Assembly (NCBI RefSeq): GCF_000379025.1
Contig: NZ_KB900618.1
Span: 362,640 to 426,639 of the forward strand
Length of the DNA: 64,000 bases
Direction: 5' to 3'
DNA from: Orenia marismortui DSM 5156
GTDB taxonomy: Bacteria; Bacillota; Halanaerobiia; Halobacteroidales; Halobacteroidaceae
Every line of letters starts with the position of its first letter. Position 1 is the stretch's first letter. The notes beneath the pieces were generated by a model. That model searched no databases. It was not told the origin of the DNA and worked only from the letters and a program-made list of their open reading frames with translations. Made by a program: the position numbers and the translations under genes. This document shows positions 35,733 to 41,720 of this stretch, in pieces.

Positions 35733-37547
35733 TTATTTTTTCTTTTTAATTAAAACAATTCCTAGTTTTCCACTTCCATCAATTCTAGATAAGTCAAGAT
35801 TTAATGAAGAGTTTGAATCTAACTTAATATAGTATATTCCTTTTGGATTAATTTTTTGCTTTGCAAATTTAGGCATTCTCTGCAATTCAAAAGAATTATA
35901 CTTATAAAGCTTATTATCTATCTCATTTATGGTATCAGTTATGTTTGTTGTCATCCAATTCATATAAATTTTACTAAATTCTTGATCAGTATAGTCTTCA
36001 ATTACTGCTATAGGATCTTTTGAACTATTCATAATTCTATCTAAAAGTTCAGTTCCATATTGTTCTAGAACATAACTAGCAAATAATGAAGATGCCCCAG
36101 AAAAAGCTAAACTACCATCATGAGTTAATAAATCTACTTTTTGAGTATTGTTCAAATAACCATAGTCTTTATCATACACCCACCCATTACCTTTTTCAGT
36201 AGACCATCCTTCTTTCTCATAATCAATATAACCGCAAACTCTTGGAGCTAATTGTGCTAAACCTTGATCAATCCAAGCATCATTAAATATTCGACCTACC
36301 TTTGCTTTATCTGTAAAGAACAACAAATGTTGATATTGATGTGCAGCAGCAGTTAATAATGTATTGATGCTTCTATCAGAGTTTAGATAAAACATTCTCT
36401 CTTCGTTACCTTGATCATGATATAAATCAGCTGGATTAAAGTATCCTGTTACTGGTACGTCTTTAAAATCAGTTAACAATACTACAACTTTAGATTGAGC
36501 AATATCTTTGGTTAACTTAGGATAGATAACATTATCAAATTCTGCTACTAATTGTTCTACCTTTTCAGTAGCAACAGTCTTATTATTATCAACAAAAACA
36601 TAAATATGTTGACCAACTGCTTCCAAAGTAGCATTTACATTAGCTTTTTTAAGGTCTTTAGAAACTACAAATTCTTTTTCATCTCCCAAAGTATATACCT
36701 TATTAGCAATCAATTCATCTCCATATTCCTTAACAAGATCAATACCTCTAGCTCTAGCATCATATTCAATCTTAGCTAATCTATCTAACTCATTATTTAA
36801 ATTAAACTCTGGAGTTTCACTTGAGAAATCTAAATAAGAAAGTGCTAAAATTAATTCTTCATCAGCTTTTATATTTTTAATAGCTGCTTTTACTTTTCCA
36901 ATATCATTCTGCTTATCTACAAACAGCTGTTTAATTTGTCCACCTAAAATATATAATGGGACCTCTACTCCATCTTCTTTTAAAGATATATCTTTTACTA
37001 ACTTCTGATATCCTTCTCTAATAACTTCAACTTTATAATCTCCAGTATTTAAATCTTCAAAACTTAACTTTTGTCCTTCTTTTCTAGCTATTACTTTATC
37101 TTCTTTCTTTAATATAACTTTAGCCTTTAATGGATTATTATTAACATCAAATAAACTCAACTCCAAATCTGCTTTAATTACTTCAACTTTCTCTTGAGAA
37201 TCTTTTGCTTGATCCTTTTCTTCAGTAGCTTCTTCTTTAACAACTGGAATTTTATCTAATTTGATCTCTTTAATCTCATTACTTGATTTTAGTACAATAG
37301 ACTCTGTATAATCCTTATACCCTTCTGCAGTAGCTCTTAATTCATATTCCCCAGTAGGCAATTCTGTAAATTGAAGATTTTCACCTACTAATGTTTTACT
37401 CTCACCACTTCTAGAAATTGTTACTTCTGCTTTAACATTAGACTTAACAGTTAATGTTGATAGTTCATCTTCTTTACACCCTACCAAAATAAATAAGAGA
37501 GATAAGACTACACTTAACAACACTATTCTTTTTCTTAAAAAATTCAT
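35733..37547 (-). CDS. Lipoprotein with two PEGA-like domains and a degenerate gluzincin peptidase domain
   Basis: 604 residues. Signal peptide with lipobox LVGC (Cys24). Residues about 30-98 and 122-200 are PEGA-like beta domains (LPTGEYELRATAEGYKDY; LNTGDYKVEVIREGYQKL). A charged linker separates them. The later part (about 330-560) follows the MA/M30-like metallopeptidase plan, but where HExxH is expected it reads HQYQH (403-407), and the third-ligand motif NEGLA reads DQGLA (427-431). Both glutamates are glutamine, so zinc peptidase activity is unlikely. It may bind peptides or wall material outside the cell. Monocistronic. Confidence 0.75.
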   Translation of the reverse strand: MNFLRKRIVLLSVVLSLLFILVGCKEDELSTLTVKSNVKAEVTISRSGESKTLVGENLQFTELPTGEYELRATAEGYKDYTESIVLKSSNEIKEIKLDKIPVVKEEATEEKDQAKDSQEKVEVIKADLELSLFDVNNNPLKAKVILKKEDKVIARKEGQKLSFEDLNTGDYKVEVIREGYQKLVKDISLKEDGVEVPLYILGGQIKQLFVDKQNDIGKVKAAIKNIKADEELILALSYLDFSSETPEFNLNNELDRLAKIEYDARARGIDLVKEYGDELIANKVYTLGDEKEFVVSKDLKKANVNATLEAVGQHIYVFVDNNKTVATEKVEQLVAEFDNVIYPKLTKDIAQSKVVVLLTDFKDVPVTGYFNPADLYHDQGNEERMFYLNSDRSINTLLTAAAHQYQHLLFFTDKAKVGRIFNDAWIDQGLAQLAPRVCGYIDYEKEGWSTEKGNGWVYDKDYGYLNNTQKVDLLTHDGSLAFSGASSLFASYVLEQYGTELLDRIMNSSKDPIAVIEDYTDQEFSKIYMNWMTTNITDTINEIDNKLYKYNSFELQRMPKFAKQKINPKGIYYIKLDSNSSLNLDLSRIDGSGKLGIVLIKKKK

Positions 37548-38046
37548 TGATTTTCCCCCTTTATAATTTTAATTTATTGTAAAGATTAGTAACCTAAATA
37601 CCTTTTAATTAACTACTCTGGTACTTATTTGATACTAATACTTTTATATTCTTTATTGCTATAATTAATCCCTTCATAATTTAGTATAACTTAATAGATT
37701 TAGGATGGCAAATAAAAAATTCAAACTACAATTATATGTAGTTTTGAATCGCTTTGAGTATGAAACAACATTTTTAGGTACTAGAAATTAGGTTATAGAT
37801 ATTAGGTCATAAGTAACAAGAGTTTGCTTATAAGTTGATAGTGATTAATAACATCTAATGGTTGATAACTAAAATGTCTTACCATCTATACAATCCAGCA
37901 TTTTTGACTATAGAAAAATTAACTTTACTGTTACTTATATATGTTACTGCCGATAAAAAAATATTTACTTTAATAAATTATAATAGAAAATTTAAAATTA
38001 TAGCTTAAATTTATATTTGAGGGAGGAGCAGGAGCAAAAGCCCCTC
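37548..38046. other. 499-bp gene-free region with weak repeat words
   Basis: A hairpin made of ATTCAAACTACA and TGTAGTTTTGAAT (about 37718-37751) is followed by loose AGGTTATAGATATTAGGTCA and TAAGTAACAAGAG words (37775-37870), like the element at 7.6 kb but decayed. No gene seen. Confidence 0.5.
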
Positions 38047-38352
38047 TTAATGACTTTTATCTAAGAAATCAAACAGACTAACAACATTATCATTAGAATT
38101 TCTTAAAGATAAATCAATATCTTCTTTTGATAAAAAGTTAATCACCTGATTTCTTCCTTCTTTATACCTTGATTTAATTGTATTTTCAAAAAGATCGTCA
38201 AAGACACTCTTAATCATAAGCATCTCTAAGCTATTAAAACCTTTATTATCTTCTTCTTCTTTTTGAAATATATCAATCATATCATGAGCAATTTGAAGAC
38301 AATAATCAGCATCAATTAATCCCTGAGCTCTTTGATCTTGACTGAGTCTCAT
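38047..38352 (-). CDS. Hypothetical protein
   Basis: 101 residues, helical and acidic, without cysteine or membrane segment. It begins MRLSQDQRAQGLIDADYCLQ, behind GAGGGGGG. No terminator is obvious behind it. I recognise no family. Confidence 0.65.
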   Translation of the reverse strand: MRLSQDQRAQGLIDADYCLQIAHDMIDIFQKEEEDNKGFNSLEMLMIKSVFDDLFENTIKSRYKEGRNQVINFLSKEDIDLSLRNSNDNVVSLFDFLDKSH

Positions 38353-38620
38353 TATATTAATTCCCCCCTCAATATTATTATCTCTAAATCTTATCTTTTT
38401 TATTTTCTATATAACAATATATTAAATATTTATAGTTCAATAATTTTAATCTATTTTTACTCAAATGGCTAATGTAAATATTTTACTTTAACATTTTCTT
38501 CTTTATTGTATATTATGTATTGAAAAAGCAAGAAAAGATAAATGAATTTTATTTTTTGCTTTGTACCTAATTTTCAAATTAACTCTAGTGCTTATATTAA
38601 ATTTGAAGGAGGGATATATA

Positions 38621-38710
38621 ATGGGAATGTATGATGATAATGCTATGCTTTTCATCTTCTTAATTCTTATCTTGTTACTTTTTAGTGGCGATATGGGAAT
38701 AAAATACTAA
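38621..38710 (+). CDS. Tandem membrane microprotein, copy 1 (29 residues)
   Basis: MGMYDDNAMLFIFLILILLL followed by FSGDMGIKY: a short acidic head, one hydrophobic helix of about 14 residues and a polar tail. ATG behind GAAGGAGGG. First of three nearly identical genes plus a diverged fourth. The layout resembles the very short YjcZ/spore-coat type membrane peptides of spore formers, but no family can be named. Confidence 0.7.
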   Translation: MGMYDDNAMLFIFLILILLLFSGDMGIKY

Positions 38711-38746
38711 CTAAATTTTTAACTTATCTAAAAGGAGGTATTTAAG

Positions 38747-38836
38747 ATGGGTATGTATGAGGACAATACTATGCTTTTTATCTTCTTAATTCTTATCTTA
38801 TTACTTTTTAGTGGTGATATGGGAGTAAAATACTAA
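38747..38836 (+). CDS. Tandem membrane microprotein, copy 2 (29 residues)
   Basis: Differs from copy 1 by D5E, A8T and I27V; the hydrophobic helix is unchanged. ATG behind AAAGGAGGT. Repeat unit length, start to start, is 126 bp. Confidence 0.7.
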   Translation: MGMYEDNTMLFIFLILILLLFSGDMGVKY

Positions 38837-38866
38837 TTAAATTATCTTAATAAGGAGGAATACATA

Positions 38867-38956
38867 ATGGGTATGTATGATGATAATGCTATGCTTTTTA
38901 TCTTCTTAATTCTTATCTTGTTACTTTTTAGTGGTGATATGGGAGTAAAGTACTAA
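38867..38956 (+). CDS. Tandem membrane microprotein, copy 3 (29 residues)
   Basis: Identical to copy 1 except I27V. ATG behind AAGGAGG. Start-to-start spacing from copy 2 is 120 bp. The spacers differ in sequence while the coding parts are conserved, which argues for selection on the proteins. Confidence 0.7.
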   Translation: MGMYDDNAMLFIFLILILLLFSGDMGVKY

Positions 38957-38984
38957 ATTAAAATTTAATAAGGGAGGAAATCAA

Positions 38985-39101
38985 ATGGGATTATATGGTG
39001 GTGGTAATTTGCTTTGGCTTATTATATTAATTATTTTACCATTATTATTTGGTGGTACAACAGAACTTAAACCTGGATTAAAACCAGGTATCAAATATTA
39101 A
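38985..39101 (+). CDS. Diverged membrane microprotein of the same array (38 residues)
   Basis: MGLYGGGNLLWLIILIILPL then LFGGTTELKPGLKPGIKY. It has the same head-helix-tail plan and the same final KY as the 29-residue copies, but a Gly-rich head and a longer tail. ATG behind AGGGAGG. It closes the array and is followed by a strong terminator. Confidence 0.68.
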   Translation: MGLYGGGNLLWLIILIILPLLFGGTTELKPGLKPGIKY

Positions 39102-39104
39102 GAT

Positions 39105-39133
39105 AAAAAGCTGGTCCGCTGACCAGCTTTTTT
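39105..39133. terminator. Bidirectional terminator between microprotein array and rubredoxin
   Basis: AAAAAGCTGGTC and GACCAGCTTTTT around CGCT, with T-run on the plus strand and A-run before it. Confidence 0.9.
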
Positions 39134-39139
39134 ACATTA

Positions 39140-39304
39140 TTAGTCTTCTATTTTTTCAAACATATCTTTGCTTACACCACATAATGGACATTCCCAATCC
39201 TCTGGAATATCTTCAAAAGCAGTACCTGCTTCAATGCCACTATCTGGATCTCCTTTTTCAGGATCATAAACATAACCACATACTGTACATTCATATTTAG
39301 CCAT
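39140..39304 (-). CDS. Rubredoxin
   Basis: 54 residues with both iron-binding pairs, CTVCGY and CPLCGV, and the family core [20 protein letters not shown]. It carries single electrons, often to superoxide reductase, rubrerythrin or flavodiiron proteins that detoxify oxygen in anaerobes. ATG behind AAGGAGGAG. It has its own perfect promoter (39459-39487). Confidence 0.95.
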
Positions 39305-39458
39305 AAAATAATCTCCTCCTTAATATTTATCTTACACTTTTATTGTAATCATTTCCTTGAGATTTTATAAGTGAATTTTTATTTATCTTATTTATGTAAA
39401 ATAATGATATAAGTTTTACAAAATCAATCTATTAGAAATGATTACTAATAGTAGTTAT

Positions 39459-39487
39459 ATTATAACTCATATGCTTGTTAATGTCAA
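39459..39487 (-). promoter_or_regulatory. Sigma-A promoter of the rubredoxin gene with a CATATG core
   Basis: TTGACA (39482-39487), 17 bases, TATAAT (39459-39464). AAGCATATGAGT lies in the spacer; it shares the CATATG core with the Fur-linked promoters but not the full flanks, so common control is only possible. Confidence 0.7.
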
Positions 39488-39541
39488 CAGTAATTGCTGC
39501 TTCTATATCATTCGATATTTTCCTTAATAGAAATCATATAT

Positions 39542-39925
39542 CTATATTTCACCATCATAGATTTCATCAATTGCAGTATTTACAATTTTTAAAGCATCTT
39601 TAAAAGAGCTTTTATATTTTATCTTCATTTTCTCAAAATGAGTAGCACCTTTTTCAGTTATACGATAATAACGAATCGACCTTTTATCAGGTTCATCCCA
39701 CCAAGCCTCTAAGTAACCTTCATCTTCCATTTCACGCAATAATGGATAAACCATACCCCGAGATGGCTTCCAGCGAGTTCCCATTTGTTCATTGATAGTA
39801 TCGAGAATCTTCTGACCATACATCCTCCCATGTTTTTCCACTAAATGTAAAATGTAAATAGATGTAAAAGCAGTTGTACTTATTTTAGCAGGAAACTGAC
39901 GATTCAATTTTCCTTTATAGTCCAA
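39542..39925 (-). CDS. PadR-family transcriptional regulator
   Basis: 127 residues. Winged helix-turn-helix of the PadR group (TSIYILHLVEKHGRMYGQKI, MVYPLLREMEDEGYL, RYYRITEKG) and a short C-terminal dimerisation helix. Such proteins repress stress or drug-response genes. It is divergent from the gene at 40112, a possible target, with 190 bp between them. Effector unknown. Confidence 0.85.
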   Translation of the reverse strand: MDYKGKLNRQFPAKISTTAFTSIYILHLVEKHGRMYGQKILDTINEQMGTRWKPSRGMVYPLLREMEDEGYLEAWWDEPDKRSIRYYRITEKGATHFEKMKIKYKSSFKDALKIVNTAIDEIYDGEI

Positions 39926-41627: not shown

Positions 41628-41720
41628 ATGTCTTTATCTATTCAAGTTATATTAACAATATTGTTTATTGTTGTTGGTTTTGCAATTCTTTATTATCTGT
41701 CTAAAAAAGAAATGTTATAA
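41628..41720 (+). CDS. Hypothetical 30-residue membrane microprotein
   Basis: ATG behind AAAGGAG; one hydrophobic helix (about residues 5-24, VILTILFIVVGFAILYYL) and a KKEML tail. A perfect terminator starts right after the stop. The start signal plus terminator support a real gene; function unknown. Confidence 0.6.
   Translation: MSLSIQVILTILFIVVGFAILYYLSKKEML

Follow-up and report, generated by a model that had tools for sequence, protein, structure and literature searches.

Three 29-residue peptides encoded in tandem in Orenia marismortui DSM 5156, a halophilic spore-former, are part of a large, multi-copy microprotein family that is apparently undescribed and that, among the relatives sampled, was restricted to genomes carrying the sporulation marker SpoIVA. 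The motif found upstream of its arrays carries the signature of sigma-K. The explanation we favour, at a probability of roughly 0.6, is that these are single-pass hydrophobic microproteins made late in the mother cell under sigma-K, with a structural role in the spore envelope.

Layout and conservation of the array

In the window (the whole 64,000-nucleotide stretch analysed here), positions 38621-39101 of the forward strand contain three ORFs of 29 codons and one of 38, arranged as a single unit with a terminator at its end (Table 1). A strong Shine-Dalgarno of the AAGGAGG/GGGAGG type precedes each of the four ORFs and the spacers are 36, 30 and 28 bp long. Tandem Repeats Finder returned a unit of 120-126 bp in about 3 copies (85-86% match). 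Calculated peptide masses were 3345-3389 Da for the intact form, 3373-3417 Da when formylated and 3214-3258 Da once Met is removed. The genes, coordinates, Shine-Dalgarnos and terminator listed in a preliminary description of this DNA were confirmed by the ORF listing, the repeat analysis and the fold of the terminator. That description also held that an acidic head and a KY end were kept in all four peptides. The KY end was indeed present in 4/4, whereas the acidic head is confined to the three 29-mers, the head of the 38-codon peptide (MGLYGGGNLLW...) having no acidic residue. The terminator also faces a convergent rubredoxin-like gene (39140-39304, reverse strand).

Table 1 Features of the microprotein array and its flanks (window positions).
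Feature	Position	Strand	Sequence	Remarks
Predicted sigma-K-type promoter, imperfect	38490..38518	+	TATATTATG (-10-like)	-35 AC at 38491-38492; N16
Microprotein copy 1, 29 aa	38621..38710	+	MGMYDDNAMLFIFLILILLLFSGDMGIKY	Strong Shine-Dalgarno; pN/pS 0.05-0.13 against other copies
Microprotein copy 2, 29 aa	38747..38836	+	MGMYEDNTMLFIFLILILLLFSGDMGVKY	Strong Shine-Dalgarno; pN/pS among copies, see text
Microprotein copy 3, 29 aa	38867..38956	+	MGMYDDNAMLFIFLILILLLFSGDMGVKY	Strong Shine-Dalgarno; pN/pS among copies, see text
Fourth gene, diverged, 38 aa	38985..39101	+	MGLYGGGNLLWLIILIILPLLFGGTTELKPGLKPGIKY	Orthologues of 41 aa at the same position in two Orenia genomes; pN/pS 0.08-0.14
Intrinsic terminator	39105..39132	+	Stem GCTGGTC/GACCAGC	Preceded by an A-tract and followed by a T-tract; fold -16.4 kcal/mol, z -5.43; stem also kept in two other species

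The same array, with its gene order kept, was found in two other Orenia genomes (G001 and G002), where two or three 28-29-mers are followed by the longer version of the last gene. In G001 the neighbours were also the same, namely a rubredoxin-like gene and a PadR gene to one side and a 101-aa and a PEGA-domain ORF to the other. Given these orthologous arrays, which share their order and end in a gene of 41 codons that corresponds to the 38-codon one, the array ORFs are not chance occurrences. Values of pN/pS were 0.05-0.15 among the copies and 0.03-0.31 when relatives were included, and the array genes are under purifying selection. Comparison with the two Orenia genomes upheld the earlier view that coding parts are kept while spacers diverge, and the proposed multi-copy, membrane-type peptides proved to be real microproteins under such selection; homologues were found and synonymous change exceeded non-synonymous change per site.

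A multi-copy family with a near-invariant hydrophobic core

Searches of Pfam and NCBIfam with the 29-mers gave no family match and the YjcZ models were not matched (see below), in agreement with the initial statement that no described family fitted. A literature search with the core string returned no relevant paper. An alignment of 39 sequences (A1) was assembled from short, Shine-Dalgarno-preceded ORFs in related loci, and a broader set was built after it. Members consist of a variable Gly/Tyr/Asp-rich head, a near-invariant core (FLILILLxLG) and a short tail, and occur in many copies per genome. Across 82 anchored sequences, which were partly chosen by the core so that its conservation is somewhat overstated, this segment read F (0.99), L (1.0), I/V, L (1.0), I (1.0), L (0.99), L (1.0), x, L/F/M and G/S. 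The stretch preceding it was 9-33 residues long and net negative in 62/82 sequences, and an aromatic residue or Cys stood among the last three positions in 69/82.

Family members are clustered in tandem, with genome totals from several to a dozen or more, and a match at E <= 0.001 was obtained in 99 of the 398 genomes of a phylum sample. In O. marismortui itself they comprise the three 29-mers of the array and six members at G000:C2:95906-97391 that form a second array (L124:2907-4398; about 95906-97397), which has a 7-of-8 sigma-K-type site upstream. Some members elsewhere carry paired Cys in the head, e.g. GCGDSC (L072:2378-2473, L073:2723-2964, L074:2205-2922, L131:2118-2201), through which disulfide cross-linking could occur.

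Placement of the 38-aa peptide is less firm. Its comparison with the family profile gave 71% (P 3.7e-5), which is weak against background as an unrelated helix pair reached P 1.1e-4, and profile-profile comparison cannot settle the homology of helices so short. Because unrelated helices score at this level, kinship is argued mainly from position, size and a peptide of genome G003, MDYSYEDHGGGNIMWIFLILILVLFTGGMEW, that looks intermediate between the 29-mers and the 38-aa peptide. TatA-like matches of the 38-aa peptide fell far below the cut-off and were taken as chance.

Co-occurrence with sporulation

SpoIVA (TIGR02836), used as the sporulation marker, was present in 107 of 151 relatives. With the broad profile, the microprotein family was detected in 44/107 SpoIVA+ versus 0/44 SpoIVA- relatives (Fisher test, p = 9e-9), and within the class in 19/27 versus 0/32 genomes (p = 1.6e-9); both p-values ignore relatedness, the genomes not being phylogenetically independent. 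An internal contrast was available in family f3, where copies numbered about ten in a SpoIVA+ genus (g18, genome G023) and none occurred in the SpoIVA- genera sampled. This restriction bears out the sporulation hunch of the preliminary description. As no member was detectable in 63/107 SpoIVA+ genomes (e.g. f2 and f4), the microprotein family is not essential to sporulation.

The sigK gene of O. marismortui was found in two pieces on two contigs (L150:3263-5011 on G000:C6 and L151:6185-6625 on G000:C7). A 486-aa large serine recombinase directly adjoins the N-terminal fragment, and the C-terminal one is on the other contig, which suggests that a skin-like element interrupts sigK in this genome.

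Promoter motif upstream of the arrays

For each of 44 arrays, some of them from near relatives and so not all independent, we examined at most 160 bp of DNA ahead of the first gene. A perfect AC-N16..18-CATANNNTA was present upstream of 26/44 arrays, compared to 0.45 expected from dinucleotide shuffles, with a spacing of 17 strongly preferred; it was present upstream of 4/180 other genes in the same loci. A relaxed promoter of the type TT(A/C)ACA-N16/17-CATANNNTA was found for 41/44 arrays. Sigma-K and sigma-E promoters have a common -10 and differ in the -35, C versus T (PMC517825), and the sigma-E-like version of the motif (AT) occurred at 1/44 arrays. To tell sigma-K and sigma-A apart, we chose sites by AC-N18/19-TANNNT alone, a pattern present upstream of 41/44 arrays, and then read the positions not used in the choice. 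Directly before TANNNT these were A in 100% (41/41) and C in 73% (30/41) of sites, and after it A in 76%. In the -35, A or C preceded the AC, where sigma-A prefers G, and G was nearly absent (2%). On this reading of the DNA, the family motif bears the signature of a sigma-K-type (late mother-cell) promoter, not of a sigma-E or sigma-A one. Induction in the forespore or by general stress, as suggested earlier, was not borne out by a motif of this mother-cell type, and the mother cell would appear to fit the array better than the forespore. Genome-wide, AC-N17-CATANNNTA occurred 164 times versus 158 in the reversed control, so the motif is weak alone and telling only by its position upstream of arrays.

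The array's own predicted site has TATATTATG instead of CATANNNTA (6 of 8 matches) and its -10 starts 112 nt before the first ATG, versus about 40 elsewhere in the family. Its core block is identical in the two other Orenia arrays, the site fits the relaxed family motif, and a weight matrix trained only on arrays outside the genus ranked it 4th of all window positions on both strands. The same bases are also readable as a sigma-70-type TTAACA-17-TATTAT, a reading that is possible for this locus alone.

Proposed role and competing explanations

Under the spore-envelope explanation, sigma-K RNA polymerase would transcribe the four-gene operon in the mother cell during late sporulation. The encoded peptides would insert in a membrane on the mother-cell side, i.e. 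the mother-cell membrane and/or the outer forespore membrane, or might alternatively form a packed hydrophobic component lying beneath the spore coat or inside it. The near-invariant FLILILLxLG segment may pack against itself or a partner, and copy number would buy dose of peptide. A broader and distinctly tentative proposal is that of an undescribed, sigma-K-driven superfamily that spans dozens of families of the phylum, with copy numbers per genome from several up to a dozen or more. In anaerobic Firmicutes it would form a bulk hydrophobic spore layer or scaffold, or else a pore for spore release, with FLILILLxLG as its packing motif, and would have been missed because its genes are mostly shorter than 40 codons. 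Should these microproteins act in the spore envelope, late sporulation in anaerobic Firmicutes would gain a large, apparently unnamed family beyond the Bacillus models, in which such peptides are known. The sigma-K motif together with spore proteomics offers a direct, testable link for genes that annotation mostly skips.

Timing and compartment would be the same if the peptides were holin-like, with sigma-K-driven copies forming pores in the mother-cell membrane and helping to free the spore. This is the main rival, and small, highly hydrophobic, multi-copy peptides would suit it. We nevertheless judge it unlikely: PHROGs gave only weak, unnamed matches, no lysis gene was present among the neighbours of the arrays inspected, and the sequence-specific core exceeds what a simple holin would be expected to need. 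The invariant L/I identities at fixed positions suggest a specific partner, and small membrane proteins often regulate or stabilise another protein, as some single-pass ones do with membrane enzymes. An accessory subunit acting in this way on one specific late-sporulation membrane protein would, however, be expected neither from the arrays inspected, which stood alone in varied contexts with no constant neighbour gene, nor from copy numbers that range from several to a dozen or more in a genome, which suit a bulk component better; this explanation also seems improbable.

Type I toxins are small, hydrophobic and often tandem, and so resemble the array peptides in size, hydrophobicity and tandem copies. 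A type I toxin or vegetative stress peptide with a sigma-A promoter would also agree with the sigma-70-type reading of the local site. Unlike such toxins, the array family is confined to SpoIVA+ genomes and has sigma-K-type promoters, the G typical of a sigma-A -35 being at 2%. A search of 37500-39600 for an antitoxin RNA gave no described Rfam family at its gathering score, and PADLOC gave no match. None of the results pointed towards a toxin, and a toxin or stress peptide is quite improbable.

Comparison with YjcZ, SpoVM and a neighbouring microprotein

The YjcZ family of Bacillus (TIGR01732, tiny_TM_bacill; PF09680, YjcZ_2) is likewise tiny and multi-copy, with a Gly-rich variable head and a link to sporulation, and both families have one hydrophobic stretch with F, a closing Gly and an aromatic or Cys end. 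YjcZ is described as restricted to spore-formers, a pattern matched by the SpoIVA counts of the array family. The cores differ (FAL(I/L)VVLFILLIIVG in YjcZ versus FLILILLxLG), and the array family, unlike YjcZ, has an acidic/Tyr head and is organised in tandem operons, in Halanaerobiales as well as in other lineages of anaerobes. In B. subtilis, yjcZ is a member of the sigma-K regulon (PMC517825), and the literature search found the role of YjcZ itself not stated.

The 39 members of A1 had no match to TIGR01732 up to E 10 and none to PF09680, and neither had further members tested. True YjcZ peptides, obtained by scanning viral contigs for a pattern and confirmed by both models, scored 38-46 bits on TIGR01732, for which the curated cut-off is 21.35 bits. 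None of the 151 genomes had a TIGR01732 match over this cut-off, and a tblastn search of plasmids with a YjcZ-like consensus found nothing. Whilst the architecture is the same and hhalign aligned the two families without gaps at 28% probability, an unrelated helix scored higher against YjcZ (56%) and the models went unmatched by the tested members, so it is very improbable that the array peptides are YjcZ itself, too diverged for its models. By the tests run, the array family is not YjcZ and probably works like it in timing, build and copy number. It would provide a second family, beside YjcZ, for asking what tiny sigma-K-controlled membrane peptides do.

SpoVM is made in the mother cell under sigma-E during sporulation. 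It is a very small membrane peptide with an amphipathic, basic, surface-binding helix. The array peptides are likewise very small, sporulation-linked and of membrane type, with mother-cell origin predicted. Unlike SpoVM, they are hydrophobic throughout the core, and most of their heads are acidic.

Finally, window positions 41628-41720 (forward strand) encode a second conserved microprotein, MSLSIQVILTILFIVVGFAILYYLSKKEML, that is unrelated to the array family (hhalign 0.9%). It lies beside a DUF421/YetF gene and has relatives in G001 (L059:379-471) and G005 (L065:833-913).
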